Below, in pieces: positions 845 to 64,000 of a stretch of 64,000 nt of DNA. This DNA comes from Thiotrichaceae bacterium (lineage in GTDB: Bacteria; Pseudomonadota; Gammaproteobacteria; Beggiatoales; Beggiatoaceae). The notes beneath the pieces were generated by a model. The model did not search any database and was not told the DNA's origin. It saw only the letters and a list, made by a program, of their open reading frames with translations. The position numbers and the translations under genes are program-made. Each line of letters opens with the position of its first letter. The first letter of the stretch is position 1. Location: assembly GCA_011391085.1 (NCBI GenBank), contig JAABRD010000028.1, forward strand, positions 1-64,000, given 5' to 3'.

Positions 845-876
845 TGAGTACAAAGCGTAAGCGTAGCTTTGTACTC
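845..876. terminator. Hairpin, GAGTACAAAGC-type
   Basis: GAGTACAAAGC pairs with GCTTTGTACTC around a short loop, just after the secreted protein and 25 bases before the C11 protease. It belongs to the dispersed hairpin family built on AAAGCGTAGCTTTG. It could act as an attenuator or a terminator between the two genes. There is no strong T-run. Confidence 0.45.
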
Positions 877-901
877 CTGGTCTTTTATTCAGGAGTCATC
901 T

Positions 902-5333: not shown

Positions 5334-8300
5334 ATGAACACACCAACGACTTTCTCCCAATCCCTTTCCTCCTTCCCTCACCCCTCCCTACTACTGGGCC
5401 TACTCTTCCTCCTCCTGTCAGCTATCGGTCAAGCGGCTGACTTAACCTTCACCCCCAACGCGCCCATTGTGGAACAGGGAAAACAGATAACATTGTCAGT
5501 CTCTGGCACCAGTGGCGAAGTGACTTGGACGGTCGCCAAAGGGCAAATTCAGGGGACGGGGACGCAGGTGACTTATGTGGCACCGGCGCAGGTGGGGTTG
5601 GATGTGGTGACGGTGATGGATGGGGGAGGGAATGTGGCGACGGTTAAAATCGTGGTTACACCGCTGTCTCAAACTCAGTCGTTACAGATGGAAAATGCCA
5701 ATTGGGAGATATTCACGAATCGCAGTGAGATTAACGCATTATTGCTGTCCGAGGATGAGAAAACGTTGTGGGTTGGAACCCAGGGTGGTTTGGAAAAGCG
5801 CGATACGCAAACGGGCGAAATTCAGCAGGTTTTTATCAATACGGATGGGTTGCCCAGTAATAATGTTACGGCCCTCATCAGTGATGATGAAGGTGGGCTG
5901 TGGGTCGGAACAGGTTCGCCTCGTAGTCAGAGAGGCATAGGTGGTGGTTTAGCCCACTACAGTGCAACAGGGCAGTGGCAGATATTCAACAAGGACAATT
6001 CCGGCTTGTCAGACAATGATGTTACTGCCTTATTAAGTGATAGCCAAGGTGGTCTGTGGGTTGGGACTTATAGAGGAGGAGTGGCCCATTACAATGCCCA
6101 AAAGCAATGGCAAGTGTTTAAGCCAGACAATTCTGGCTTGCCATCTAACGGCGGAGTTATGGCTTTATTAAGCGATAGCCAAGACGGTCTGTGGGTCGGC
6201 ACCGTTTGCGAATATACAGATATAATCGAGCATACATGTGTGACAGGTGGAGGGTTAGCTCATTACACCGCCCAGGGACAATGGGAGGTGTTTAACACTG
6301 ATAATTCGGGTTTGCCATTCAACGAGATCGGAACCTTGTTAAGTGATAACCAAGGTGGTCTATGGATAGAGAAGGGAGCTCGTTATGGAAACAACGGTGG
6401 ATTGGTCCACTACACTGCCCAAAAGCAATGGCAAGTGTTTAATGAAGAAAATTCGGGCTTGCCATCCGACTGGGTTTATGCCCTGTTAAGCGATGGTCAA
6501 GGCGGTCTGTGGGTGGGAACAAGTAGTGGTTTGGCCCACCGCGGTGCCCAGGGAGAATGGACTGAGTTCACCACCGACTCGGGCCTACCATACAAAGATG
6601 TAAGAACCCTGTTAAGTGATGGTCAAGGTGGGCTGTGGATGGTAACTGTTGAGGGTTTGGCCCACCGCAGTGCCCAGGGAAAAATGACCGGGTTCACAAT
6701 CGACTGGGGCTTGCCATCCAATAGAGTGACAGCCCTGTTAAGCGATGGTCAAGGTGGACAGTGGGTGGGAACTTGGGGTGGCGGTTTAGCCCACCGCAGT
6801 GCCCAGGGAGAATGGACCGCCGGGTTCACCACCGAATCGGGTCTATCATACAGCTCGGGTCTATCATACAGCCATGTAAGAACTCTGTTAAGCGATGGTC
6901 AAGGTGGGCTATGGGCTGGAATTTGGGAGGGTTTAGCCCATCGCAGTGCGGAGGGAGAATTGACCGTGTTCACCACCGACTCGGGCCTGCCAGCAAGCGC
7001 TTCCGGTATGGTAGATGTAAGTGCCTTGTTAAGCGATGGTCAAGGTGGGCTATGGGTGGGAACTTGGGGTCACGGTCTAGCCCACCGTGATGCCCAGGGA
7101 GAAGTGACCGTGTTCACCACTGACTCTGGCTTGCCGGACAACTGGGTGACTGACCTGTTAAGCGATGGTCAGGGTGGGCTGTGGGTGGGAACAAGTAGTG
7201 GTTTGGCCCACGGCAGTGCCCAGGGAGAAGTGACCGTGTTCACCACCGACTCTGGCTTGTCGAGCAACTACGTGAGTGCCCTGTTAAGCGATGGTCAAGG
7301 TGGGCTATGGGTGGGAACTGGGCGTGGTTTGGACCACCGCGATGCCCAAGGAAAAAAAGTGGCTATATTCACCACTCCAACAAACGTGAAAGCCTTGTTC
7401 AGCGATGGTCAAGGTGGGTTGTGGGTGGGAACCTCCTATGCTGGTTTGGCCCACTACAGTGCCCAGGGAGAATTGACCTGGTTCAACACCAAAAACTCGG
7501 GGTTGCCACACAATGAATTGGATGCCCTATTAAGTGATAGTCAAAGTGGCTTATGGATAGGAACTGGTTATGGCGGTCTAGCCCACCTCACCTTCACCCA
7601 AAAAACTGCCCTCTGCCAAACCACCGACGCCACCACCTGCGAAAACCTCCAGGCGAACAAACGTGCCGCTATCCTTATCGCTGGTGGAGGTGCCGACAGT
7701 TCCAACACCCTCTGGGACACGACTGAAGCTATCACCAGTTACCTTTACAAAGTCTTTAACAAACGCGGCTTTGATAACGATGAGATTTATTACCTTTCCC
7801 CCAAATCTTGGGCCGATTTCAACGGGGATGGCTTAGATGACCGCATTGTCGATGCCCCCAACCCAGAACGTCCTCTCACTCCCGAAGATGTTCGACTGGC
7901 TTTGGAATGGGCCAAGGGACTTGGCAAACTGGACCAACCGTTGTATCTATTTTTCGTGGACCACGGCGGCACGGAGAAATTCCAGTTAAGCAAATTGGAA
8001 TATCTGGAAGTCACCACCTTGAAAACCTGGTTAGACGATTATCAAACCGTCACCGGCAATCAAGTGATGATGGTCATTGATGCGTGTCATTCTGGGCAAT
8101 TGTTAGACTCTCTCAAAGCCCCTAACCGTGCCATCATCAGTAGCACCGGCGACGGTTTGGCGTATTTTTACCGCCCCGATAAACGTGGTTTCAGTCGCTT
8201 CTTTGCCGCGGGGTTACTCAAAGGCATGAACTTCTGGGAAGCCTTTGGTTATGCGGGAGGGGAACAAACTAAATTGTTAGGCGATATATCTAAACTGACA

Positions 8301-9134
8301 ACGGCCAGTTCAGGTAGCAGCAGTGAAATTGGTCAAGTGCCACGATTTGATGATGGCAGTGACGATGGCCAATGGTTAAAACAGATTTATCTCAACGGCA
8401 GTTTTGCGGCAGGAGATTTGACCTTAGCGGTGGAGAGTTTAACTACTTCCACCACGGTAGCCGCCGGCACCCCATTGCCACTGAAAGCTAAAGCGGTTCT
8501 CGCCGAAGGACAGATTAAACGAGTGTGGGCCGTCATGCGGCCACCGAAGATGAATCTGGTCATGGATAGCAACGGCACGCCGATTTTAGTGTTACCGCAA
8601 CTAACTTTGGCTACTTCTGGTAGTGAACAGGATGTCTGGGAAGCCACTTGGCAAGAAGCGATTTATAACGGTAACTATCAAGTGACCTTCTATGCCGAAG
8701 ATAACCAAGGCAATATTGCCAGCAGTGACCTGCCCGTAGTCATTACCGTCACCGGTGGCATTGACCCTCCTCCCCAAGCCATGGTGCAATTGGGATTGGA
8801 GAAGACGCAATATCATGCTGGCGAACGTTTTACCGCCACCTTGACCGAACAGTTAAGTTGGGGATATGACCTCTATGCCGCGGTCTTATTACCCGATGGT
8901 CAAACCTTTGTCACTTTGAAAACTCTCAATGAATTTGCCCCATTGAATGAACCCAAACCGTGGCGGGCGCAACGTGTTCAAACGCAGCCGGTGACGTGGA
9001 TAGACATGACGTTGCCTGATTCGTTACCGACGGGACAATATTGCTTATTTGGGATTCTGTCACCAGAGGGGGGAGATGTATTGTTGAGTCAGGGGTTGTG
9101 GGTGATGGATAGCCAGTGTTTTGAGATATTTTAA
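5334..9134 (+). CDS. Secreted propeller-repeat protein with legumain/caspase-like protease domain
   Basis: A 1266-residue exported protein; AGAGGA lies nine bases before the ATG and a signal peptide ends near IGQAA. An Ig-like domain (about residues 36-110) is followed by 14 repeats (about 130-755) of the form ALLSDGQGGLWVGT-x-GLAH-x-AQG-x-W-x-F-x-DSGLP, matching two-component-regulator propeller (Reg_prop) blades; 14 would make two seven-bladed propellers. A clan-CD protease domain follows, with predicted His877 (FFVDHGG) and Cys918 (IDACHSG), closer to legumain (C13) than to metacaspase. The last ~240 residues are two beta domains. Likely role: extracytoplasmic ligand sensing coupled to proteolysis (inference). 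A frameshifted paralogue starts at 20295. Confidence 0.82.
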   Translation: MNTPTTFSQSLSSFPHPSLLLGLLFLLLSAIGQAADLTFTPNAPIVEQGKQITLSVSGTSGEVTWTVAKGQIQGTGTQVTYVAPAQVGLDVVTVMDGGGNVATVKIVVTPLSQTQSLQMENANWEIFTNRSEINALLLSEDEKTLWVGTQGGLEKRDTQTGEIQQVFINTDGLPSNNVTALISDDEGGLWVGTGSPRSQRGIGGGLAHYSATGQWQIFNKDNSGLSDNDVTALLSDSQGGLWVGTYRGGVAHYNAQKQWQVFKPDNSGLPSNGGVMALLSDSQDGLWVGTVCEYTDIIEHTCVTGGGLAHYTAQGQWEVFNTDNSGLPFNEIGTLLSDNQGGLWIEKGARYGNNGGLVHYTAQKQWQVFNEENSGLPSDWVYALLSDGQGGLWVGTSSGLAHRGAQGEWTEFTTDSGLPYKDVRTLLSDGQGGLWMVTVEGLAHRSAQGKMTGFTIDWGLPSNRVTALLSDGQGGQWVGTWGGGLAHRSAQGEWTAGFTTESGLSYSSGLSYSHVRTLLSDGQGGLWAGIWEGLAHRSAEGELTVFTTDSGLPASASGMVDVSALLSDGQGGLWVGTWGHGLAHRDAQGEVTVFTTDSGLPDNWVTDLLSDGQGGLWVGTSSGLAHGSAQGEVTVFTTDSGLSSNYVSALLSDGQGGLWVGTGRGLDHRDAQGKKVAIFTTPTNVKALFSDGQGGLWVGTSYAGLAHYSAQGELTWFNTKNSGLPHNELDALLSDSQSGLWIGTGYGGLAHLTFTQKTALCQTTDATTCENLQANKRAAILIAGGGADSSNTLWDTTEAITSYLYKVFNKRGFDNDEIYYLSPKSWADFNGDGLDDRIVDAPNPERPLTPEDVRLALEWAKGLGKLDQPLYLFFVDHGGTEKFQLSKLEYLEVTTLKTWLDDYQTVTGNQVMMVIDACHSGQLLDSLKAPNRAIISSTGDGLAYFYRPDKRGFSRFFAAGLLKGMNFWEAFGYAGGEQTKLLGDISKLTTASSGSSSEIGQVPRFDDGSDDGQWLKQIYLNGSFAAGDLTLAVESLTTSTTVAAGTPLPLKAKAVLAEGQIKRVWAVMRPPKMNLVMDSNGTPILVLPQLTLATSGSEQDVWEATWQEAIYNGNYQVTFYAEDNQGNIASSDLPVVITVTGGIDPPPQAMVQLGLEKTQYHAGERFTATLTEQLSWGYDLYAAVLLPDGQTFVTLKTLNEFAPLNEPKPWRAQRVQTQPVTWIDMTLPDSLPTGQYCLFGILSPEGGDVLLSQGLWVMDSQCFEIF
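5705..7590 (+). repeat. Coding tandem repeat: 14 propeller blades
   Basis: Each blade is about 105-150 bases with a near-constant core encoding LLSDGQGGLWVGT. Blades between 6450 and 7330 are very similar at DNA level, so the array should be able to gain or lose units by recombination. The paralogue at 20295 shows 12 recognisable units. Confidence 0.75.
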
Positions 9135-20294: not shown

Positions 20295-21014
20295 ATGACA
20301 AACTTAACTAAACTCAGCCACTTTTTCTTAGTATTCTGGTTATTATTTATCCACTCGGCGTTCACTTTCGCCGCCGACCTCACCTTCACCCCCAACGCGC
20401 CCATTGTGGAACAGGGAAAACAAATAACATTGTCTGTCTCTGGCACCAGTGGCGAAGTGACTTGGACGGTCGCCAAAGGGCAAATTCAGGGGACGGGGAT
20501 GCAGGTGACTTATGTGGCACAGGTAGGATTGGATGTGGTGACGGTGATGGATGGGGAGGGGAATGTGGCGACGGTTAAAATCGTCATCATGTTGTCCAAT
20601 AATATTTCGTTGGAAAACGCGAATTGGGAGGTGTTTACGAATCGCAGTAATATTTACGCATTGTTGCTGTCAGAAGATGGCAAAACGTTATGGGTGGGAA
20701 CAGAAGGGGGACTGGAAAAGCGAGATGCACAGACGGGAGAAATTCAGCAGGTTTTTATCAATACGGATGGCTTGCCAGGCAACTTTGTTAGTGCCCTCCT
20801 CTCCGATAGCCAAGGCGGGCTGTGGGTCGGGACTTGGGCTAAAGGCGGATTAGCCCACTATGCGCAAGGGCAGTGGCAGGTGTTCAACACCGACAATTCG
20901 GGCTTGCCATCCAACCTTGTTTCTTCCCTCTTCCCCGATAGCCAAGGCGGGCTGTGGGTAGCAACCGGTCCAGAATGGGATATTGAAAAGCAAGAGAGTG
21001 TAGGAGGGGGTTAG
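20295..21014 (+). CDS. N-terminal part of frameshifted propeller-protease paralogue
   Basis: Codes for 239 residues: signal peptide (ending near FTFAA), the Ig-like domain nearly identical to that of the 5334 protein (ADLTFTPNAPIVEQGKQ), and the first three propeller blades. It then stops at TAG in GGAGGGGGTTAGCC (21003-21016). One extra base in the G-run would restore GGGLAYLNAQGQW and join it to the next reading frame. This could be a real frameshift, phase variation, programmed slippage or a sequencing error; sequence alone cannot separate these. Confidence 0.75.
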   Translation: MTNLTKLSHFFLVFWLLFIHSAFTFAADLTFTPNAPIVEQGKQITLSVSGTSGEVTWTVAKGQIQGTGMQVTYVAQVGLDVVTVMDGEGNVATVKIVIMLSNNISLENANWEVFTNRSNIYALLLSEDGKTLWVGTEGGLEKRDAQTGEIQQVFINTDGLPGNFVSALLSDSQGGLWVGTWAKGGLAHYAQGQWQVFNTDNSGLPSNLVSSLFPDSQGGLWVATGPEWDIEKQESVGGG

Positions 21015-21019
21015 CCTAC

Positions 21020-23761
21020 TTGAATGCGCAAGGGCAGTGGCAGGTATTCAACACTGACAATTCGGTCTTGCCAACCAACGAAGTTTTTGCCTTATTAGGC
21101 GATGGTCAAGGTGGACTGTGGGTGGGAACTTCTAAAGGTTTAGCCCACCGCAATGTCCAAGGAGAGTGGGCGCTGTTCAAGGTCACGACCAACTCGTACT
21201 TCTTAACAGACCTAAACAATGTTGTGACCGCCCTGTCAAGTGATGGTCAAGGCGGACTGTGGATAGGAACTCTTAAAGAAGGTTTAGCCCACCGCAATGT
21301 CCAAGGAGAGATGGTGTTCACAAAAGATTTGGGCTTGCCAGACAACATGGTGCACACCCTGTTAAGTGATGGTAAGGGCGGGCTGTGGGTAGGAACTTTT
21401 GACAGTTTAGGCCACTACAGTGCCCAGGGAGAATGGATGATGGTGAATACAGAAAACTCGAACTGGCCATCCGACATAAAAGCCTTATTAAACGATGGTC
21501 AAGGCGGGCTGTGGGTAGGATTTCGTGGTGGTTTAGCTCACCGCAGTGCCCAGGGAGAATGGACGGCATTCAATACAGAATGGCCAGGCGGCTGGGTGAC
21601 AAGCCTGTCAAGCGATGGTCAAGACGGGCTGTGGGTGGGAACGGCTATTGCCTATGGTTCTAAAGGAGGTTTAGCGCACCGCAGTGCCCAGGGAGAATGG
21701 ACGGTATTCAATACAGAAAATTCTGGTTTGCCATCCAACGATGTAACAACCCTATTAAGCGATGGTCAAGGTGGGCTGTGGGTGGGAACTTATAAAGGTT
21801 TAGCCCACCGTGGTGTCCATGGAGAATGGACGGTGTTCAACGCAGAAAATTCGGGTCTGCCAGACGGCCGATTAGAGGCTCTGTTAAGCGATGGTCAAGG
21901 CGGTCTGTGGGTGGGAACTGATGGAGGAGGATTAGCCCATTACAGCGCCCAAAGACAATGGGAAGTGTTTAGTCCCGACAATTCCAGTTTGCCATCCTAC
22001 TATGTTCGTGCCTTATTAAGCGATAGCCAAGGCGGGCTGTGGGTCGGGACTTCTGGCGGATTAGCCCATTACACTACCTCTGGTCAATGGCAAGTGTTTA
22101 ATACCGACAATTCCGCTTTGCCTGACAACCGGGTTTTGGCCTTATTAGGCGATAGCCAAAGCGGCCTATGGGTCGGAACTGATGGAGGTCTCGCCCACCT
22201 CACCTTCACCCAAAAAACCGCCCTCTGCCAAACCACCGACGCCACCACCTGCGAGAACCTCCAGGCAACCAAACGCGCCGCTATTCTTATTGCTGGAGGA
22301 GGCGCCGACAGTTCCAACACCCTTTGGGACACGACTGAATCTATCACCAATTATCTCTACAAAGTCTTTAACAAACGCGGCTTTGATAACGATGAGATTT
22401 ACTACCTCTCCCCCAAAGCCTGGGCGGATTTCAATGGAGATGGCCTAGATGACCGCATTGTCGATGCCCCCAAACCAGAACGTCCTCTTACCCCAGAAGA
22501 TGTTCGACTGGCTTTGGAATGGGCCAAGGGACTGGGCAAACTGGACCAACCGTTGTATCTGTTTTTCGTGGACCACGGGGGCACGGAGAAATTCCAGTTA
22601 AGCAAAATGGAATATCTGGAAGTGACCACCTTGAAAACCTGGTTAGATGATTATCAAACGGTCACTGGTAACCAAGTGATGATGGTCATTGATGCGTGTC
22701 ATTCGGGGCAACTGTTAGACTCTCTCAAAGCCCCGAACCGTGCCATTATCAGTAGCACTGGCGACGGTTTGGCCTACTTTGAACGCACCGATAAACGCGG
22801 TTTTAGTCGCTTCTTTGCTACGGGGTTACTCAAAGGGATGAACTTCTGGGAAGCCTTTGGTTATGCGGGAGATGAACAAGTTAAGTTGTTAGGCGATGTT
22901 TCCAAAATGGAAACGGCCAGCACGGGTAAAACTCAAGAGATTGGTCAAGTGCCACGGTTTTATGATGGCTATGATGGCAGTGATGCGGGCAAATGGCTAA
23001 AACAGATTTATCTCAACGGCAGTTTCACGGCTGGCGATTTGACTTTGGCAGTGGAAAGTATGACCCCTTCCACTGCATTAACCGTCGGCACACCCTTGTC
23101 ACTGAAAGCCAAAGCCATTCTCGCCGAAGGCCTGATTGAACGAGTGTGGGCCGTCATCAGACCACCTAAAATGAACTTGGTCATGGATAGCAACGGCACC
23201 CCCATTTTGGTGTTACCACGACTCGCCTTGACTCCTTCCAAGAGTGAGAAAGAGATATGGGAAACCACTTGGCAAGAAGCGATGTATAACGGTGACTATC
23301 AAGTGACCTTCTATGCCGAAGACAACCAAGGCACGATTGCCAGCAGTGACCTGCCCGTGGTGATTACCGTCACCGGTGGCATTGACCCACCTCCCCAAGC
23401 CTTGGTGCAATTAGGTTTGGAGAAAATGCAATATCAGTTTGGCGAACGTTTCACGGCCACCTTGACCGAACAATTAAGTTGGGGATATGATTTATATGCC
23501 GCGGTCTTATTACCTGATGGTCAAACGTTTGTCACCTTGAAAAACACCAACGAATTTGCCCCGTTGAATGAACCCAAACCGTGGCGGGCACGACGTATTC
23601 AAACGCAACCGGTGACGTGGATAGATATGACCTTGCCTGACACGTTACCTACGGGACAATATTGCTTGTTTGGGATTTTGTCACCCGAAGGGGGAGACGT
23701 GTTTGAGACGTTGAGTCAGGGGTTGTGGGTATCGGAGACGAAGTGTTTCGAGATACTTTAA
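21020..23761 (+). CDS. C-terminal part of frameshifted propeller-protease paralogue (legumain/caspase-like)
   Basis: This frame carries nine more propeller blades, then the clan-CD domain with intact predicted His (codon 22574, FFVDHGG) and Cys (codon 22697, IDACHSG), and the two C-terminal beta domains. The protease part is almost the same as in the 5334 gene. The first possible start is a TTG at 21020 without a convincing ribosome site and without an export signal. It is therefore better read as the rest of the 20295 gene than as a separate gene. Joined, the protein would be about 1155 residues. Confidence 0.75.
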   Translation: MNAQGQWQVFNTDNSVLPTNEVFALLGDGQGGLWVGTSKGLAHRNVQGEWALFKVTTNSYFLTDLNNVVTALSSDGQGGLWIGTLKEGLAHRNVQGEMVFTKDLGLPDNMVHTLLSDGKGGLWVGTFDSLGHYSAQGEWMMVNTENSNWPSDIKALLNDGQGGLWVGFRGGLAHRSAQGEWTAFNTEWPGGWVTSLSSDGQDGLWVGTAIAYGSKGGLAHRSAQGEWTVFNTENSGLPSNDVTTLLSDGQGGLWVGTYKGLAHRGVHGEWTVFNAENSGLPDGRLEALLSDGQGGLWVGTDGGGLAHYSAQRQWEVFSPDNSSLPSYYVRALLSDSQGGLWVGTSGGLAHYTTSGQWQVFNTDNSALPDNRVLALLGDSQSGLWVGTDGGLAHLTFTQKTALCQTTDATTCENLQATKRAAILIAGGGADSSNTLWDTTESITNYLYKVFNKRGFDNDEIYYLSPKAWADFNGDGLDDRIVDAPKPERPLTPEDVRLALEWAKGLGKLDQPLYLFFVDHGGTEKFQLSKMEYLEVTTLKTWLDDYQTVTGNQVMMVIDACHSGQLLDSLKAPNRAIISSTGDGLAYFERTDKRGFSRFFATGLLKGMNFWEAFGYAGDEQVKLLGDVSKMETASTGKTQEIGQVPRFYDGYDGSDAGKWLKQIYLNGSFTAGDLTLAVESMTPSTALTVGTPLSLKAKAILAEGLIERVWAVIRPPKMNLVMDSNGTPILVLPRLALTPSKSEKEIWETTWQEAMYNGDYQVTFYAEDNQGTIASSDLPVVITVTGGIDPPPQALVQLGLEKMQYQFGERFTATLTEQLSWGYDLYAAVLLPDGQTFVTLKNTNEFAPLNEPKPWRARRIQTQPVTWIDMTLPDTLPTGQYCLFGILSPEGGDVFETLSQGLWVSETKCFEIL

Positions 23762-52863: not shown

Positions 52864-54165
52864 CTATTCTGCCAACGTCACCACCCTCCCCATAAACAAA
52901 ATCACCCCTGTCGCAGTTTCCCGAATCACAAACAGAAATGGACGATTAACCCGAAACTCAAGGACCTGTTCCACTCCCTTTTCAACCATTCCAGTCGCCG
53001 TTGCGGCTGCCGCTTCCGTTCCCTTCTCGTTGACTTCCACAAATGCTTTATGCAACACGGTGGACAAGAACAAATCTTTGTGACCAGTCATCCCTGAAAA
53101 ATCCGCCCGGTCACGGTTAAAAGCCTCCGTCATTTCCAAATTCTGAAGAGACTCGGTTAATTCCATCGCCGTTTCTACCTGGAAACGTGGCAAATACACA
53201 GCCACTTTTTTTCGCTTAAACGGCATCGTCAAGCGTGCGACCAAGCCTTTCCCCAAGTTCTCTTCCACCGTGGTTAGAGGAAGACCTTCGGCAGGTAAAA
53301 TGATGACCATGGTGAGTCCAGTTTTCTCACCCGCTTTCCGCAGATAAGGCAATTCCAACATCTGCATTTGGTCATCGGCTTGATAGTTAAAGCGACCTTC
53401 TTGAAACATCATCGGGACTTCGACTGCGGAATCAGTGGTGGGGTGGAAAGGCAACCGTTGCGTGTCTTTTGCATCAAACGGGGAGAACCAACTGCCTTTA
53501 AAGTAAATGGCATTGGTCAACAGTAACCGAGTTTGCGGCGGAATCGCTTCCCGATTCACTAATTCCGTAATCTTCCCCTGCGTTTCCTGTTGCGTCCACT
53601 GATTGATTTTGGCTATCCCAGTCGGATCAGAAAAGTTCACACTTTTCAAACCGGCTTGGTAATTTTCATAAGTGAGGTCAGTGAAGTCTATCAAAAACTG
53701 GGAACCGGATTGTGCCCATAACGCATTGGCAATTTGTAACGCATCCCCACCACCGCCAGACGCGGCTACCAAGGTTTGGTTCAGACGTGCGAAATCGGCA
53801 TGAACGGTGGTACCGGTGGGAAATCGCAAAACGTTGGCCATTTCCTCAGCCGTCTTACCACGCGCCCCTGCATAAGTCATGGCCAAAGCGGAGGAGATGC
53901 TATAGGGAGAGAAACACCAATTCTGATTTGGCATCGTTTTCAGTTGTTGTGTATAGAGAACGGTGGCAAATTCATTGATGCCTTGGGCCACGGTGAGAGG
54001 TTGCGTGGTTGTGAGTCTGGAGAGGTCTTGTCTAGGGACGTTCTCCTGAATGACAGGAGGACCTTCCAAAGTTTTTTCAGTGGCACTACATGCACTGAGA
54101 GTTAATCCGGAGAGACCCAGATATATGATTTTTAATACCGTTTTCATAGAGTTTGTCATTGTCAT
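52864..54165 (-). CDS. Serpin-family protease inhibitor lipoprotein
   Basis: A 433-residue serpin. AAGGAAA precedes the ATG, and the signal peptide ends in the lipobox LTLSAC (Cys26), so it is predicted membrane-anchored. NWCFSPYSISSALAMTYAGARGKTAEEM, LTNAIYFKGSWFSPFD and NRPFLFVIRETATGVILFMGRV are core serpin motifs. The hinge EKGTEAAAATA fits the inhibitory consensus (P17-P8). Counting from it puts Lys (codon about 52980) at P1 and Gly at P1', suggesting inhibition of Arg/Lys-specific proteases. Clostripain and many metacaspases have that specificity, so the protease genes in this window are candidate targets (inference). Confidence 0.92.
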   Translation of the reverse strand: MTMTNSMKTVLKIIYLGLSGLTLSACSATEKTLEGPPVIQENVPRQDLSRLTTTQPLTVAQGINEFATVLYTQQLKTMPNQNWCFSPYSISSALAMTYAGARGKTAEEMANVLRFPTGTTVHADFARLNQTLVAASGGGGDALQIANALWAQSGSQFLIDFTDLTYENYQAGLKSVNFSDPTGIAKINQWTQQETQGKITELVNREAIPPQTRLLLTNAIYFKGSWFSPFDAKDTQRLPFHPTTDSAVEVPMMFQEGRFNYQADDQMQMLELPYLRKAGEKTGLTMVIILPAEGLPLTTVEENLGKGLVARLTMPFKRKKVAVYLPRFQVETAMELTESLQNLEMTEAFNRDRADFSGMTGHKDLFLSTVLHKAFVEVNEKGTEAAAATATGMVEKGVEQVLEFRVNRPFLFVIRETATGVILFMGRVVTLAE

Positions 54166-54266
54166 AATGTGTTTCCTTGTTTAATCGAAAAGTTATAATA
54201 GAGTTGTCCGGAAATAAAAATTCATCTGTGATAGAATCATAAACACCAAAATATTTTGCTTATTGA

Positions 54267-54366
54267 CTCGTTCCCACGCGCCGGCGTGGGAATGCGGTGG
54301 AGGCGTTGCAGGAACGAGACGCTGGCACGTCCGCCCCACGTTCCCACGCTGGCGCGTGGGAACGAG
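54267..54366. repeat. Inverted repeat CTCGTTCCCACGC...GCGTGGGAACGAG
   Basis: Second copy of the element at 27502-27594, with internal arms CCGGCGTGGGAATGC and GCTGGCGCGTGGGAACG. It overlaps the 3' end of a HigA-like remnant. Nothing else is seen in 54166-54400. Confidence 0.65.
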
Positions 54367-54399
54367 AGATAAACCGGTACTCGCGGTTCCACACGCGGC

Positions 54400-56570: not shown

Positions 56571-56945
56571 TCACTGTGTGTAACGGATTCCAGTAGCTGT
56601 AACGTGATAGATTTTGGTTTCTCCTACCATGGAAGAACTCTCTTTAATATCGATGATAGCATCGGCACCTGATAAACGAGCTTGTTTCTTCAAATCGGGC
56701 AGGGCATCATTAAGAGATGACCCGATGAAATGGGTCTTCTCTAAATGGACATCAAGGCGCGATATTTTGATGAACGGCCGTTGGGGTATGTCATCATCAT
56801 AGAAGGTTTGGATGTCGTACCCTTCAGGTTTGGCAGAATACGAATCTGCCACAAGCATTGAGTAACGACTTTGCGTACTAGCACATGATATGGTAAGTAA
56901 AGCCACCAAACATAACACCAAAGCACTCAGAATGGTCTTCTTCAT
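56571..56945 (-). CDS. Small lipoprotein of unknown function 1
   Basis: A 124-residue protein with signal peptide and lipobox (LLTISC). The soluble part (RLDVHLEKTHFIGSSLNDALPDLKKQARLSGADAIIDIKESSSMVGETKIYHVTATGIRYT) has the alternating strand pattern of small envelope lipoproteins that sense or bind metals or peptides, but no family is certain. It follows another lipoprotein gene by 16 bases. Confidence 0.75.
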   Translation of the reverse strand: MKKTILSALVLCLVALLTISCASTQSRYSMLVADSYSAKPEGYDIQTFYDDDIPQRPFIKISRLDVHLEKTHFIGSSLNDALPDLKKQARLSGADAIIDIKESSSMVGETKIYHVTATGIRYTQ

Positions 56946-56961: not shown

Positions 56962-57357
56962 TTACTTGGTAAGCGATTTGGTCATTTCATTCAGAATCTC
57001 GGTATTCCAAATCTTCTGTCCAACAATGCCAACAAAGGATCTGGCGGTATCCACTTTGACTGCGGTCTGGTTTGGTCCTTGTTCAGTTAACCAGATACCT
57101 ACAGTCTCCCCTCCGGATCCGACAAGCAAGCCAATCTTGCGAGGACGAAAACCTTCGACGTAGGTAACTTCTTGTTTGGCAACATCAAAACCAGTTACGA
57201 CCAGTGCATCCACCGCGGCTTTCTGCACTTGCACGATTGGTTGTTCAAACACCGTCATGGGTGTGGTATTACTAGCCACTGGGGTAGAAGCACAGGCAGC
57301 CATCATGGCTAAAATCAATCCGAATAACATCACTCGAACAACATGTCTTTTTATCAT
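56962..57357 (-). CDS. Small lipoprotein of unknown function 2
   Basis: A 131-residue protein with lipobox MMAACAST. The body (VFEQPIVQVQKAAVDALVVTGFDVAKQEVTYVEGFRPRKIGLLVGSGGETVGIWLTEQGPNQTAVKVDTARSF) resembles DUF3568-type envelope lipoproteins in its A-x-x-x-AL-x-x-x-GF pattern; assignment is tentative. Cotranscribed with the next lipoprotein gene. Confidence 0.75.
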   Translation of the reverse strand: MIKRHVVRVMLFGLILAMMAACASTPVASNTTPMTVFEQPIVQVQKAAVDALVVTGFDVAKQEVTYVEGFRPRKIGLLVGSGGETVGIWLTEQGPNQTAVKVDTARSFVGIVGQKIWNTEILNEMTKSLTK

Positions 57358-57929: not shown

Positions 57930-58796
57930 TTAAAAGGTAACAGTGAGACCCAAGGCAAACCCTTCCGTGCCATCGCGCACTTCCAGTCCATTGCCAGCTT
58001 CGTAGTATAGACTCTGGAAGCGATACCCCAGGCTGACAGAGGCTGCATCAATTACTTTGGCAAACTTGAAAGAGTAGAGGAGACCCATATCGCCTAGATA
58101 GTAATCGGCGGGGTCCTTATCCCCGTTCCCTAGCCGTCCATAAGCAAAGTTGCCATAGAGACCGAAACGTCCTTGCAAGGGAACGACACCGGCAATTCCT
58201 AGAGTGGGTCCGGAGGATTTGGTATTTATGTCGGGTGCTGTTCCGGCAGTAAAGTCTGATATTTGTCCAGTCACTTTAGCAATTCTTTTGACTCCCTTGT
58301 AACCTGCCGTCACCAGCAGATACTTATGGAGATAATATCCTGTATTAATATCCCATTCGGTGCGTTCATTCTTTAAGGATATATTCAAAGGAAGAACAGT
58401 ACCATTACCGGACTGAACACCTATTGTCTGTTCCTCAAAACTGTACTCGGTTTTGGTGAAGTAGCTACCCGACACCAACCAGTTTTTAGCTCTTACACTA
58501 AGTACCGGTATAAGGGCAATCTTAGTCCCAGAAGTGTAGGACATAATAAATTTTTGACCATTGTTCCCGATCATAGCATCAGGTAAAATCCACTGATTCA
58601 TCCACATTTTTACCCCCACCGAGGCACTAAAGTCCTTTTCAAAGTGAGAGTCAGAGGCAGAACTCAGAAAGGATTTGCTAGTTCCCCCTTCCATAGCCCC
58701 AGGAGACTGGGTTACAGAAGGAGATTCTTCCGCGTTGACGCTACTCCCAATTAAGTAGCTACTGGTGACAATCGCAAACGCGACAATTTTTCGCAT
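57930..58796 (-). CDS. Outer-membrane beta-barrel protein
   Basis: A 288-residue protein with a signal peptide (IGSSVNAEE). After a Ser-rich linker it shows alternating hydrophobic strands with Gly/Tyr/Trp turns (DFSASVGVKMWMNQW, WDINTGYYLHKYLLVTAGYKG, GLYGNFAYGRLGNG, ASVSLGYRFQSLYYEAG) and ends in LGLTVTF, a C-terminal Phe as outer-membrane proteins have. Probably a 10-12 strand barrel; substrate unknown. Confidence 0.78.
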   Translation of the reverse strand: MRKIVAFAIVTSSYLIGSSVNAEESPSVTQSPGAMEGGTSKSFLSSASDSHFEKDFSASVGVKMWMNQWILPDAMIGNNGQKFIMSYTSGTKIALIPVLSVRAKNWLVSGSYFTKTEYSFEEQTIGVQSGNGTVLPLNISLKNERTEWDINTGYYLHKYLLVTAGYKGVKRIAKVTGQISDFTAGTAPDINTKSSGPTLGIAGVVPLQGRFGLYGNFAYGRLGNGDKDPADYYLGDMGLLYSFKFAKVIDAASVSLGYRFQSLYYEAGNGLEVRDGTEGFALGLTVTF

Positions 58797-58823: not shown

Positions 58824-58909
58824 AAGAAACCGAGTTTTTTCAAAAAACTCGGTTTCTAAAGTTAGAAAGAGAAACCGAGTTTTTTCAAAAAACTCGGTTT
58901 CTAAAATTA
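58824..58909. terminator. Tandem GAAACCGAGTTTTTTCAAAA hairpins
   Basis: Two copies of GAAACCGAG-TTTTTT-C-AAAAAA-CTCGGTTTC in tandem immediately after the caspase gene stop on the minus strand; likely terminator/attenuator upstream of the barrel gene. Confidence 0.65.
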
Positions 58910-60145
58910 GAATGACAGTGGTACTTCCATTTCTTCACGACTATTATTGGTTGATTTACTCTTCTCGGATTGTTCTTTGGCCAGTCTGGCCTCTTCTCTG
59001 GCGCGTTGTGCTGCTATTTCAGCTTCTTTGGCGCGTCGATTAGCTTCTTCGATTTGGCGATTTGCATCACCTCCTATTTCTCCACTAGGAACTGGTTGAA
59101 TTTTCAGTTGCGCATCTCTCAATGCCTGTTCGGCCTCCTTAGCCCGTTGTTGCGCTTCTCTCGCCTGCTTTTCTGCCTCCTCAGCCCGTTGCTGGGCTTG
59201 TTGTGCCTGCACATTTTGACAACCCAAAAAACAAAACTTCCCCATGGTGGAATCGTAATTTTGCGGCACTTGTTGTCCATTGGTCGCGTCTGACACCCGT
59301 TGGCGCACATTAATCAACATGTCAGCCAAAGACAAATGGCCATCTTCTTGGATAGAAGTCAGTAAGTGTTTGGTAAAAGTACCATTCCGACCACCCGTAC
59401 CATCTTGATCTTGGGCCTCCGTCTCAGGTTGCGTGGGGTAAATGACAATAGCACCCTTTGAATTAGGCGGGGCGGCCAATCCTCCACGACTAATCCCCCG
59501 TGTGCCTCTTGTCAGTCCACCCTTTTGTCGACACGCATCTAAAATGACAATGTTGAACTTATTGCCCGCTTCGTTCATGCGTTCTAGCACTTCATCAACG
59601 ACCAGGGCGTTATACTTCACCTCCGCTTCACTGGTGCTATGAACATCGGTAGGAATCAGATAATTCTTGCTACCCGTTCTATCATCAATTTGCACCCCAT
59701 GGCCTGCATAATAGAACAAGCCAACGCTGTTGGAATCTTGTTGGAGAGTTTGAACAAACTTATCGACGGCCTCCCCCATTTGTTGGTAACTGGCATCAGT
59801 CAAGGAAACCACCGTAAACCGTTTATCTCCTCCTAGAGATTCCAAGGAACTTCTTATATCGGTAGCATCATTGACCGAATTATCTAACACTTCCCATTTG
59901 TCATCGTCATATTTGGCATTGCCAATTATCAAGGCATACCGCTTTCCTGTCACTTCACCCGTCGCACTGCCTTTTGACTGGGAAGGATGTTTCAGGTGTG
60001 TGGGAGAGGGTGCAACCGCGTCCCCGGAATAACTCCCCCTGGACAGAGACGGTCCGGGAATGGAGTTTTCTTTGATTTGGTTACATCCAGTACCAATGAG
60101 TCCAAGGGTAGCCATCATACTCACAAATAACACTTTGGTTTTCAT
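58907..60145 (-). CDS. Caspase-like (C14) lipoprotein with C-terminal coiled coil
   Basis: A 412-residue protein with lipobox LIGTGC (Cys21). The p20 caspase domain spans about residues 67-310: KRYALIIGNAKYDDDKWEVLDNSVNDATDIRSSLESLG, YYAGHGVQ with predicted His149, and VILDACRQK with predicted Cys205. SVNDA and the Asp-rich S1 region suggest Arg/Lys preference as in metacaspases (inference). The last ~100 residues are a long Ala/Gln/Glu/Arg coiled coil (AQQRAEEAEKQAREAQQRAKEAEQ). Probably anchored in the envelope. Confidence 0.9.
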   Translation of the reverse strand: MKTKVLFVSMMATLGLIGTGCNQIKENSIPGPSLSRGSYSGDAVAPSPTHLKHPSQSKGSATGEVTGKRYALIIGNAKYDDDKWEVLDNSVNDATDIRSSLESLGGDKRFTVVSLTDASYQQMGEAVDKFVQTLQQDSNSVGLFYYAGHGVQIDDRTGSKNYLIPTDVHSTSEAEVKYNALVVDEVLERMNEAGNKFNIVILDACRQKGGLTRGTRGISRGGLAAPPNSKGAIVIYPTQPETEAQDQDGTGGRNGTFTKHLLTSIQEDGHLSLADMLINVRQRVSDATNGQQVPQNYDSTMGKFCFLGCQNVQAQQAQQRAEEAEKQAREAQQRAKEAEQALRDAQLKIQPVPSGEIGGDANRQIEEANRRAKEAEIAAQRAREEARLAKEQSEKSKSTNNSREEMEVPLSF

Positions 60146-60210: not shown

Positions 60211-60921
60211 TCATTCCGTAATAATTTCGACGCGCCGATTCATGGCATCAACTTCTGCGGGAGAATAAGAGTCAGGATTGTCGATGGGAATCGGTGCTTC
60301 TTCTCCCTTGCCTTCCGTAAGAATAGTGCTGGTGACACCTTTGTCTTTTAAATAACTTTCCAACGTTTTAGCACGTTTTTTAGACAACACCAGATTGGGT
60401 TGCGGGTCGCCTGCGGCATCGGTATGACCAATCAACTTAATGACAGGGATATTCTGTTCTGTCAGACAAGTGACCAGTTGTTTGGCCACCTGTTGACCTC
60501 TGTCACTGAAAGTGACTTTCCCGAATTGAAATTGAACTGGTATCGAATGTTTGGTCACCAGAACACCTCGAACTTGATGACGCATCATGGTATCGCAATT
60601 GAGAACCCCGCGTGTCGAATCACCAAACTCGGTAGCCAACAGTTGGGCTTTGGCCAAACTATCAAGCAACCGTTTAATCTCCATTTCCGCGGGTACTTGA
60701 GGAGTCACTTCGGGGTCATCGATAAAACTTAATGCCTGATTGTAAAAATTGGCTGCCGTTTGCCATTGCTTGCGTGCCATTGCCTGGTCTGCTTTGTTCT
60801 GGACTTTCTGCCATTCGGGTAGCGGTCCATGCGTTGGTGTGTGCAAGAATGATTGGGCTTGGAGGTTTTGGTTAAAAACCATACCAATCAAAAACAGTAA
60901 TAATGTAATTTTTTTGTTCAT
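60211..60921 (-). CDS. OmpA-family peptidoglycan-binding protein
   Basis: A 236-residue protein with a signal peptide (NQNLQAQ). Residues ~30-110 contain a TPR-like helix pair (ADQAMARKQWQTAANFYNQALSF). Residues ~120-236 are an OmpA C-like domain: VQFQFGKVTFSDRGQQVAKQLVTCL, IKLIGHTDAAGDPQPNLVLSKKRAKTLESYL and MNRRVEIITE carry the peptidoglycan-binding Asp/Arg positions. It is upstream of the caspase lipoprotein and may be coexpressed. Confidence 0.88.
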   Translation of the reverse strand: MNKKITLLLFLIGMVFNQNLQAQSFLHTPTHGPLPEWQKVQNKADQAMARKQWQTAANFYNQALSFIDDPEVTPQVPAEMEIKRLLDSLAKAQLLATEFGDSTRGVLNCDTMMRHQVRGVLVTKHSIPVQFQFGKVTFSDRGQQVAKQLVTCLTEQNIPVIKLIGHTDAAGDPQPNLVLSKKRAKTLESYLKDKGVTSTILTEGKGEEAPIPIDNPDSYSPAEVDAMNRRVEIITE

Positions 60922-61100: not shown

Positions 61101-62813
61101 CTACCGCGGTGACCAATTTAAGTCCGGCACGAGTCCCCTGGAATGACGGGCGCCTTTACCACCATTATCCCAGATATAGACTTCCCCAGTCTTCTGGTTC
61201 CACCAGAGAATATCAGCCTTCCCATCACGGTCAAAGTCGCCCGCCCCAGCCGCCATCCAACCGGTGCCGATGGGTACGCCTGGATATGATTCCCCGAAGA
61301 ACAAGTCGCCCGTTTTCTCATTCCACCAGAGAACGTCGCCGAAATTATCCCCGTCAAAATCCGCCACGCCCTTAGGCCGCCAACCCGTGTTTGGATCAAC
61401 GGTCACCCCCAAAGGCACTTTCGCCCCGCCGCTATACCAGACATAAAGTTCCCCCGTGGTTTGGTGATACCAAAGCACGTCACCAAAGCCGTCACCATTC
61501 AGGTCGCCACCACAGCAAGGTTTCCATTGGGTATCTGCGACAGTTCCAAGTGAACCCTTAGAACCATTCCCCAACCAGACATAGACTTCGCCCGTTTTCT
61601 GATTCCACCAAAGGATGTCCGCACGCCCATCTTTGTCATAATCAAACACGCCTCTAACCATCCAGCCGGTGTCAACTGGGACATTGCCAGCAGGATAATT
61701 GCCATGGCTACTCGTATAGAGGAACAGGTCACCGGTCGCTTTGTTAGACCACAAAATATCGTCTATCCCATCTCCATCAAAGTCGCGTGAGGTAGCGAGT
61801 AGCTTGGTGCCTGTACCAGTGAGAGGGTATGGATACTGTAACTGATTATCTATAGCGTAGGCGTGATAACTTCCACTAGCACTGCAACACCCCTGAAGTT
61901 TGAATCTAAACGCATCTTGCAAGGTGTTAATTACAACAATGATATATTCTCCAATCGCTGGTAGATATCCGGCACGAGCTTCCTCATTCTGCGGGGTAGT
62001 GCAGTTCAATATAAAACCACCGTCTGGTGGTGTGGTAAAGGTACTACCGCAAGAAACGGTCGCGGTGTAAGTTTGGGTACCTACTGTATAGGTGAACTGC
62101 CAAGAGGTGTTTACCAAAGGTTGTAAATCATCTCTATTGGTAGAGACGAAATTCGTACCTACGGTGTCGATTCGTGTGCCCGTAAGAGGGTATGGATGCT
62201 GTAACTGACTATCTATAGCGTAGGCGTAATAACTCCCACTCGCACTACAACAACCCTGAAGTTTAAAGACAAACCAGTCCTGTAAGGTGTTATTTACTAC
62301 AATGACATATTGCCCAGATGTTGGGTCATATGCAGCACCCACCACCTCATTCTGCGGGGTAGTGCAAGCCAGCCCAGCAGTCCCGTCCGGAGCCGCAACA
62401 ATGGCACTGGCACCACCGCACGAAATGGTCGCCGTGTAAGTTTTGGTACCGACTGTATAGGTGAACAGCCAAGAGGTGCTTACCAACGGTTGCAAATCAC
62501 TGGGATTGGTAGAACCAGCGGCCCTGACTAAACGTGTGGAAGCGTTTTCCGTAGCAAGATTCACTAACATCACTTCCGCAGGATAATTGGCCAGGCTACC
62601 CATTTCTGGGTAAGGAACCGAGGCGGTGGCCATTTCTTTCACCATTCTGGTTAGCGATGAACCACCCCCCTCAAAGTCGCCTTCGGCAAAGACTGGCGCA
62701 GTAGCGAATAGGGCCAAGAAGCCCAAAATCACCGTGTACTTGACACGATGACGTGTTCTTTTAGCCAGTTGGCACGAACTTGGCGCTGGCTGGTATATCA
62801 CGTTGTTAATCAT
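61101..62813 (-). CDS. Secreted FG-GAP/VCBS-repeat protein with duplicated Cys module
   Basis: A 570-residue exported protein (signal peptide ending APVFAEG). Residues ~95-325 hold two copies of a ~115-residue module (DLQPLV-x-TSW-x-FTYTVGT-x-TYTAT, CTTPQNE, FKLQGCCSASGSY-x-AYAID) that I do not recognise. Residues ~330-570 are five FG-GAP/VCBS repeats with Ca-binding loops (DFDGDGIDD, DYDKDGRAD, DLNGDGFGD, DFDGDNFGD, DFDRDGKAD) and ILWWNQKTGEVYVW-type blades. Probably a surface adhesin or ligand-binding protein. Confidence 0.85.
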   Translation of the reverse strand: MINNVIYQPAPSSCQLAKRTRHRVKYTVILGFLALFATAPVFAEGDFEGGGSSLTRMVKEMATASVPYPEMGSLANYPAEVMLVNLATENASTRLVRAAGSTNPSDLQPLVSTSWLFTYTVGTKTYTATISCGGASAIVAAPDGTAGLACTTPQNEVVGAAYDPTSGQYVIVVNNTLQDWFVFKLQGCCSASGSYYAYAIDSQLQHPYPLTGTRIDTVGTNFVSTNRDDLQPLVNTSWQFTYTVGTQTYTATVSCGSTFTTPPDGGFILNCTTPQNEEARAGYLPAIGEYIIVVINTLQDAFRFKLQGCCSASGSYHAYAIDNQLQYPYPLTGTGTKLLATSRDFDGDGIDDILWSNKATGDLFLYTSSHGNYPAGNVPVDTGWMVRGVFDYDKDGRADILWWNQKTGEVYVWLGNGSKGSLGTVADTQWKPCCGGDLNGDGFGDVLWYHQTTGELYVWYSGGAKVPLGVTVDPNTGWRPKGVADFDGDNFGDVLWWNEKTGDLFFGESYPGVPIGTGWMAAGAGDFDRDGKADILWWNQKTGEVYIWDNGGKGARHSRGLVPDLNWSPR

Positions 62814-63057: not shown

Positions 63058-64000
63058 TCACTTCACTTCATATTCCCCCGCCGCCATCACCCACCGCTTC
63101 GTCCCCAACTGTTGCGTTAATAACTCACGCAGTTGCGATTCGGTGATTGACGCCTGGTTTTTGGGTAACTGCGCAGTTTGGCCATCTACTACCACGGCTA
63201 TGAATAAGTTCTTCCCCGGTATATTTCCCGCAGTTAATTGGAAACCAGCATAAACATTTTCAGGAATTGTTACCGTTTGGCCGGCCTTAATCAGACGTTT
63301 TTCCTTGGCTTGCGGGATAATTCGAGTTAACTGGCCAGTGTAGTCAAGTTCCCAGACGATTAATTGTCCCGCCTGGTCACTTTGCACTTGCACTCGTAAC
63401 ACGTCACCGCTTCTCACTTCATTCCCTGGCAACACCGTTAACCGTAAAGATGGGTTGGACAGAATAGCCGTTGAGGGTGGCGGTGACGGGGAGGCACCCA
63501 TCGGTTTAATATCAAAGACAGCTTGCGGCGTTTGCACTTTGCCTTCTTCTACGGCGATTTGAACGGTCGACCGTTTAATAATCCTTTCCCAAGTCGTTTC
63601 GCTATTTAAACTGGCTAACCAAGCGTTAGTAAATAATCCTCCTGTTGTGGTGCCCACAGAGGGTTGGCCCGGTTTAGAACTGGCAAAAATGAGATGACCT
63701 TGATAATTCAAAAACAGTTCACGATATTCTCCCACCTTTGGCATACCGCGGTCTTTCGGTGGCGGCACCACATTGTTACACGCATCGGCAATGGCTAAAA
63801 ATAAGCGGGGACGTTTTTGTTGAAGACGTTCGATGATGTTATCAAAATCGTACAGTGAAGCGGCACCTGTAGCCTTTTTATTAAGTGCCAAAGAGGGCCA
63901 CCGAGTCGTTTTAGTTAACGCCCGTCCACCATGTCCAGAATAGTAAAAAATCACCACATCCTCCTTAGCCACCGTCAAGTTATTTAGGGCTGATTCCACT
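63058..64000 (-). CDS. Caspase-like protein with DUF4384-type domain (5' end beyond the window)
   Basis: Partial: the N terminus lies past the window edge. The visible 313 residues begin inside a C14 caspase domain: VVIFYYSGHGGRAL (predicted catalytic His) and LFLAIADACNNVVP (predicted Cys). Residues ~180-290 (LRLTVLPGNEVRSGDVLRVQVQSDQAGQLIVWELDYTGQLTRIIPQ) resemble DUF4384, a domain often joined to bacterial caspases. It is the sixth clan-CD protease locus of the window. Export cannot be judged. Confidence 0.85.
   Translation of the reverse strand, partial: VESALNNLTVAKEDVVIFYYSGHGGRALTKTTRWPSLALNKKATGAASLYDFDNIIERLQQKRPRLFLAIADACNNVVPPPKDRGMPKVGEYRELFLNYQGHLIFASSKPGQPSVGTTTGGLFTNAWLASLNSETTWERIIKRSTVQIAVEEGKVQTPQAVFDIKPMGASPSPPPSTAILSNPSLRLTVLPGNEVRSGDVLRVQVQSDQAGQLIVWELDYTGQLTRIIPQAKEKRLIKAGQTVTIPENVYAGFQLTAGNIPGKNLFIAVVVDGQTAQLPKNQASITESQLRELLTQQLGTKRWVMAAGEYEVK

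Follow-up and report, generated by a model that had tools for sequence, protein, structure and literature searches.

Introduction

CrmA, a poxvirus serpin, traps caspase-1, a protease of clan CD. Unlike the bacterial serpin described here, CrmA is viral, has Asp at P1 and acts on host caspases. Miropin from Tannerella forsythia is a bacterial serpin that is anchored as a lipoprotein and has Lys-type targets and serine-protease targets, and we know of no C14 cluster at its gene. Its source is a host-associated bacterium, unlike the organism studied here. The chain 3le2, which we take to be the Arabidopsis serpin AtSerpin1, carries the reactive loop KLR-GLL, where the hyphen, here and below, marks the bond between P1 and P1'. 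To our knowledge AtSerpin1 has no lipid anchor and forms no serpin-metacaspase gene cluster. A review lists AtSerpin1 as an inhibitor of the metacaspases AtMC9 and AtMC1 (PMC10609998).

Chloropin is an inhibitory serpin from a prokaryote, the sulfur bacterium Chlorobium limicola. Its authors call the natural targets of prokaryotic serpins elusive, and the accessible excerpts of their paper contain no link to C14 proteases (PMC10090351). A phylogeny of the superfamily describes the functions of prokaryotic serpins as relatively enigmatic (PMC8233489). The single-cell genome of Ca. Thiomargarita nelsonii encodes 59 metacaspases (PMC4853749), and the word serpin is absent from the main text of that paper. 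The pairing of a serpin with caspase-like proteases is known from plants; within the accessible text of the open-licence literature we recognised no case of a C14 protease being linked to a serpin in bacteria, in agreement with the initial annotation of the present locus, which knew of no description of such a pairing in bacteria.

Here we analyze a stretch of 64,000 nucleotides (the window) from Thiotrichaceae bacterium (Beggiatoales; Beggiatoaceae), assembly GCA_011391085.1, contig JAABRD010000028.1, positions 1 to 64,000 of the forward strand. The window is the first 64,000 nt of the contig that we call C62, and contigs C48 and C62 of this genome are referred to as own C48 and own C62. We propose that the serpin encoded in the window is tethered by a lipid and acts as a suicide inhibitor on C14 proteases of the same cell envelope, chiefly on the paracaspase-like first-type ones whose genes share its cluster, and we give this proposal about an even chance of being right.

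A full-length serpin with a predicted Lys at P1

The gene and its predicted P1 codon are located in the window as follows.

52864..54165, (-) strand: serpin, predicted envelope lipoprotein, 433 aa (PF00079, AF2, Foldseek)
52978-52980, (-) strand: codon of Lys396, the predicted P1, with Gly397 as P1' (P17-P1 count, conserpin alignment, end of the modelled strand)

The ORF starts with ATG, and by eye AAGGAAA lies six bases before it. Pfam Serpin (PF00079) matched residues 62-429 with E=1.4e-116 over positions 2-368 of the 370 in the profile, which places the protein in the serpin family (MEROPS I4) at full length. The AF2 model, built from 31 sequences, reached pLDDT 84.8 and pTM 0.81 with low confidence for residues 1-54. 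Foldseek matched this model to serpins, many of them in cleaved form, including miropin (5ncu, 5nct, 5ncw). Among solved serpins, conserpin (5cdx and its variants) and 8gxv, presumably chloropin, lie nearest by sequence. By inspection, the N-terminus carries a signal of the lipoprotein type, which closes with LTLSAC at residue 26. The profile match, model and Foldseek result thus confirm the serpin of the initial annotation at full length, and the signal agrees with the membrane anchoring predicted there. Inverted repeats of the CCCACGC...GCGTGGG type lie immediately upstream of the gene (window 54260-54390).

The reactive loop reads EKGTEAAAATATGMVEK-GVEQVLEF. Its hinge from P17 to P9, EKGTEAAAA, fits the inhibitory consensus ExGTEAAAA (PMC8233489), in line with the reading of the hinge in the initial annotation. 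Counting forward from Glu380 as P17 places P1 at Lys396. HMMER aligned Lys396 on the P1 residue of conserpin (5cdx) and on that of 6ee5, a conserpin carrying the alpha1-antitrypsin loop, in both cases without a gap between hinge and P1; the P1 residues of the two chains are those of our own count. In the AF2 model the loop is an inserted strand of residues 382-395, or P15-P2, which ends before Lys396. Because the count, the conserpin alignments and the end of the modelled strand agree, Lys396 stands as the predicted P1. The Lys P1 read from the sequence at the outset was therefore retained, and the structure-based comparison produced no shift to a non-basic residue in either the alignments or the model.

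With Lys396-Gly397 the serpin has a basic P1 followed by Gly, as has AtSerpin1; that this pair defines metacaspase-inhibiting serpins is our assumption, made from AtSerpin1. The two proteins also share a hydrophobic P2' (KLR-GLL and VEK-GV), and loops of relatives such as TR-GM and TR-GL are AtSerpin1-like as well. AtSerpin1 is a plant protein with Arg at P1, whereas the window serpin is bacterial with Lys at P1. The target class would be shared, C14 being that of the listed targets of AtSerpin1 and the one proposed for the window serpin.

Gene neighborhood of the serpin

Near the serpin the window holds a row of envelope-type and C14 genes, and a C11 gene lies at its far end.

869-3271: C11 clostripain (E 1.8e-37)
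56571..56945, (-) strand: small lipoprotein-like ORF (by eye), with a weak YbjQ_1 match below the cut-off
56962..57357, (-) strand: small lipoprotein-like ORF (by eye), without a family
57930..58796, (-) strand: putative outer-membrane barrel (by eye), without a Pfam family, similar by BLASTP to C14-barrel fusions
58907..60145, (-) strand: first-type C14 caspase-like protein with a lipoprotein-type N-terminus and an intact His/Cys dyad (PF00656, 6e-39)
60211..60921, (-) strand: OmpA-family protein (PF00691, 1.3e-12)
61101..62813, (-) strand: FG-GAP repeat protein within the cluster (PF13517, 2e-22)
63058..64000, continuing to contig position 64239, (-) strand: second-type C14 with DUF4384, 3' part (E 5.8e-10)
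64459-65439 of contig C62, outside the window: further second-type C14 gene

The nearest C14 gene (58907-60145) is 4.74 kb from the serpin, with toxin-antitoxin-like ORFs, the two small lipoprotein-like ORFs and the barrel gene between them. The toxin-antitoxin-like ORFs lie upstream of the serpin on the same strand and resemble YafQ/ParE (below or near the cut-off) and a PIN domain. The C11 gene is about 50 kb away. The serpin had been described as standing beside Arg/Lys-type protease genes, which holds loosely for C14 and fails for the unlinked C11. The C14-barrel fusions found upstream of serpins elsewhere contain, as their C-terminal half, a homolog of this lone barrel (BLASTP 3e-19 to the fusion in G014 C23 and 6.5e-15 to that in own C48), and the rest of contig C62 also carries a protein, X, without a family. 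A scan for promoters and terminators gave 7 promoter-like sites against 5.9 in shuffles and 1 terminator-like site against 5.7, counts that do not bear on operon structure.

Elsewhere in the window, weak C13-like stretches occur in two long ORFs. Genes at 5334-9134 and 20295-23761 encode Reg_prop propellers that resemble each other and match C13 (legumain-like) weakly, and the one at 20295-23761 is split into two ORFs.

Clusters of serpin and C14 genes in three genomes of the order

We compared 42 genomes of the order from 25 genera. Serpin flanks were fetched in 33 stretches, and their genes were clustered together with those of the window. Two C14 families are of concern here. The first type (F3) is of the YYAGHG...DACR kind. 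The second type (F4) is mostly of the LHAIIVADT...YYSGHG...DACN kind and may carry DUF4384 or a barrel as a fusion partner, or neither. F3 and F4 genes occur in five of the 34 serpin loci examined, serpin and C14 always on the same strand, and these loci fall in three genomes.

Own C48: 905 bases between C14 and serpin
Own C62: the window
G014 C23: C14, 12 bases, C14-barrel gene, 21 bases, serpin
G014 C201: two serpins, one overlapping its C14 by 4 bases and the second 42 bases after its C14
G016 C96: OmpA-type gene between C14 and serpin (about 1.25 kb)

OmpA-type genes are thus found in the clusters of G014 C201 and G016 C96 as well as in the window. HMMs built from F3 and F4 found no further C14 gene in the serpin stretches of the order.

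A C14 gene lies within 5 kb on the same strand at 6/35 serpin places against 1.18 expected (P=0.0009); the expectation, from the C14 number and size of each genome with flanks cut at contig ends, is generous because C14 genes are clumped, and the events are not independent since one genome accounts for three of the six linked serpins and one locus for two. With the window left out, five places remain (P=0.005). Within 2 kb there are five against 0.62 expected (P=0.0003), and five of the linked serpins are within 1.3 kb of a C14 gene. For 29 of the 35 places no C14 gene lies within the flanks read, some of them cut short by a nearby contig end, and no serpin-C14 linkage was found in the four genomes richest in C14 (G025, G027, G029 and G037, with 36-52 genes). 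Two of these C14-rich relatives hold broken serpin copies, L070 7614-8793 (G027 C103) and L071 6946-8404 (G037 C183).

The order C14, C14, C14-barrel, serpin is common to own C48 (genus g1) and G014 C23 (genus g8), at identities of 47% for the serpin, 43% for the first-type C14 and 39% for the C14-barrel protein. Clustering of the flanking genes gave no other family in common between the two. We read the kept order as selection for co-retention of these genes, because it persists at 47% serpin identity while the other flanking families are unshared. Own C48 and own C62 match in their X proteins (1.5e-29), second-type C14 proteins (5e-55) and first-type C14 proteins (1.9e-14), and the two clusters look paralogous, the window being the looser copy with other genes interposed. 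The C14 proteins of G014 C201 match the window C14 more closely (1.4e-29, 1.7e-24) than the first-type one of own C48 does.

In one serpin tree, the six linked serpins fall within one set of 14 rows (SH-aLRT 95) together with eight others; a larger tree of 84 rows did not recover this set with support and contains no supported set of half of the rows or fewer around the window serpin. Of the eight others, L050 (G031) and L063 (G011) are cut off by a contig end on the upstream side, and the neighbors of L063 are the same OmpA-type and small lipoprotein genes as in the G014 C201 cluster. A lipoprotein-type N-terminus was called by eye, as throughout this work, in five of the six linked serpins against 0/19 rows of the order's other large set; a lipobox regular expression flagged only 3 rows. 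The ORF directly after the serpin of G014 C23 (L064 45-428) looks by eye like a metzincin fragment and has no Pfam match.

Predicted S1 pocket of the C14 proteases

The window C14 (58907-60145) has a caspase domain with His and Cys in GHG and DAC and belongs to Peptidase C14. As an EACC1-associated caspase (NCBIfam NF047832) it was rejected, its score of 72.6 bits lying below the curated cut-off of 140. An AF2 model of this protein alone had pLDDT 44.5 and was not used.

Its nearest solved chain is that of MALT1 (3v4o, E 3.5e-12). In MALT1, P1 specificity is ascribed to D365, D462 and E500 (PMC4357240), and almost only Gly is accepted at P1' (PMC6207715). The window C14 has Asp at all three positions. 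Acids stand at all three in 6/6 first-type C14 proteins of the serpin clusters, and the third acid is absent from five of the six complete second-type ones. The comparison with MALT1 is a distant one, and the Arg/Lys specificity of these C14 proteases is a prediction. The first-type proteins appear the likelier serpin targets, because the acidic S1 triad is kept in them and the third acid is mostly absent in the second type. A lipoprotein-type N-terminus was seen by eye in five of the six F3 proteins.

Two further features of the C14 proteins were observed. In L062 (6500-8347) and L064 (1783-3540) the C14 domain and a putative outer-membrane barrel form single proteins, giving a caspase fold an architecture reminiscent of autotransporters. 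Beyond its catalytic Cys the window C14 contains TRGTRGISRGG, in which several R-G bonds resemble those in the serpin loops, and self-processing might take place here.

The reactive-loop signature among serpins

For the order, loops were parsed in 34 serpin ORFs, with four serpin fragments left out, and were compared with those of 76 serpin ORFs from outside (80 loci with 83 ORFs, less one unparsed and six own-order rows). Arg or Lys occupies the canonical P1 in 24/34 serpins of the order and is followed by Gly in 19/34, counts that are not independent because the basic-Gly loops are clustered on the tree, with 7 changes among 84 rows. The next residue in these loops is, by reading, always L, M, I, F or V. 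Outside the order Arg or Lys is at P1 in 20/76, with Gly next in 0/76 and Ser or Ala next in 18 of the 20. Anywhere in P2-P1', the basic-Gly pair is present in 23/34 serpins of the order against 5/76 outside. Two sequences were misparsed in the count: L064 of the order was entered as non-basic, its actual loop being EEGTEATAATAAIVSR-GRS, and the actual loop of L081 in the outside group has no basic P1.

Among the linked serpins, the canonical Lys-Gly pair is found in 2/6, the window serpin and that of G016. The pair sits one residue earlier in own C48, G014 C23 and the first serpin of G014 C201 (L062, L064 and the first of L060), and the second serpin of G014 C201 has Arg-Ser. The hinges of all six follow the inhibitory consensus or are one residue off. 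The basic-Gly loop also occurs in 17 of the 29 serpin places without a nearby C14 gene; it characterizes serpins of the order and is not confined to the C14-linked ones. Another serpin of the lipoprotein type, L067 9304-10629 (G016 C79), has the hinge EQGSRATSGGTSTVQAM, which looks non-inhibitory.

In the genomes outside the order, Arg or Lys is at P1 in 8/18 serpins where C14 is present against 5/35 where it is absent (p=0.022). The variants of this comparison gave p=0.042 for Arg or Lys anywhere in P2-P1', p=0.32 for the basic-Gly pair and p=0.09 for at least 4 C14 genes, and there are only 4 kin-independent pairs on supported branches. The cross-phylum association of P1 with C14 is suggestive only.

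These loops bear on another reading of the serpin, in which the anchored protein shields the cell surface from trypsin-like proteases of the environment or of grazers or hosts, and its proximity to C14 genes reflects shared islands of envelope genes. A basic P1 suits trypsin-like enzymes, a role of this kind has been proposed for other bacterial serpins, and 29/35 serpin places of the order are unlinked to C14. For chloropin, which traps thrombin, the authors consider proteases of endogenous or environmental origin (PMC10090351). Such a shield, however, predicts neither Gly at P1' nor a same-strand order of serpin and C14 genes kept between genera, and we regard it as unlikely, if worth keeping in view.

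Co-occurrence with C14, C11 and other proteases

Among the 42 genomes, serpin genes are found in 26, C14 genes in 40 and C11 genes in 14. Co-occurrence across related genomes had been suggested as a check on the pairing. For C14 it says little: we rejected presence and absence as evidence because C14 is in 40/42 genomes, namely in 25/26 with a serpin and 15/16 without. Genomes with a serpin carry more C14 genes (median 12.5 against 4, p=0.004; per Mb p=0.012), with kinship and assembly differences uncontrolled. For C11 the association held, with serpins in 13/14 genomes that have C11 against 13/28 that lack it (p=0.006), and by genus in 8/9 against 6/16 (p=0.033), both uncorrected for kinship.

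Beyond the order, 80 loci (six of them own-order, many on short contigs) include 0/80 with C14 or C11 in the stretch, and C14 is absent from 33/50 of the outside serpin-bearing genomes. A sample of the class has serpins in 11/369 genomes, two of them own-order, and none of its 9 serpin stretches contains C14 or C11. The viral contigs hold no C14 relative, and none of their 6 serpin loci has C14 or C11 in the stretch.

A further reading takes a different Arg/Lys protease of the cell as the serpin's target: clostripain (C11), a gingipain-like C25 enzyme or an S1 trypsin-like enzyme. The co-occurrence with C11 speaks for this, as does the supply of the other two, with C25 in 29/42 and the trypsin family in 41/42 genomes. 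No serpin stretch other than that of the window, where it lies about 50 kb off, contains C11, and clostripain was rejected as the target as it co-occurs at the genome level and is unlinked. Within 5 kb of a serpin no trypsin or C25 gene was seen by eye among the matches listed, and the trypsin family is too broad to be of diagnostic value. We consider a target of this sort improbable. Contig G016 C96 also has a C11 gene (8523-9494) and a serpin (74518-75618), about 65 kb apart.

Discussion

The serpin was initially viewed as a possible brake on clan-CD proteases of the same window. The C14 part of this view is strengthened by the same-strand clusters, the basic-Gly bond and the S1 acids, and the C11 part has genome-level co-occurrence but no linkage behind it. 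As a hypothesis, the serpin-protease pairing now has real, if circumstantial, evidence on the C14 side and little on the C11 side.

If the serpin inhibits the C14 proteases of its own envelope, a C14 enzyme would attack the loop between Lys396 and Gly397. The cut loop would then insert into sheet A and leave the C14 enzyme as a covalent, distorted complex, so that a limit would be set on C14 activity, whether periplasmic or at the cell surface. That both proteins reside in the envelope is suggested by the envelope-type signals seen by eye on each.

Clustering and loop match would fit equally well if the serpin were a substrate or structural partner of C14, cleavage of its loop switching a signal or releasing a fragment; the lipoprotein-type L067, with a hinge seemingly unable to insert, is in keeping with such a role. 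A mere substrate would not need the near-consensus inhibitory hinges that the six linked serpins keep, and we hold this role to be very improbable.

Inhibition of the C14 proteases can be placed in a wider frame. Filamentous and giant sulfur bacteria may possess an envelope caspase-serpin module, in which paracaspase-like proteases at the surface or in the periplasm, some of them fused to outer-membrane barrels, are checked by co-encoded and mostly lipid-anchored serpins whose loops evolved towards a rule of Lys or Arg followed by Gly. We put this generalization forward tentatively and with more doubt than confidence.

The serpin/C14 cluster kept between genera offers concrete pairs to express and test. 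If such a module exists, bacterial serpins would have an endogenous target, and the plant brake formed by serpin and metacaspase would gain a parallel in bacteria, in a group whose caspase-like repertoires are very large. The pairing would also point to caspase-fold proteases being under serpin control beyond eukaryotes and their viruses.
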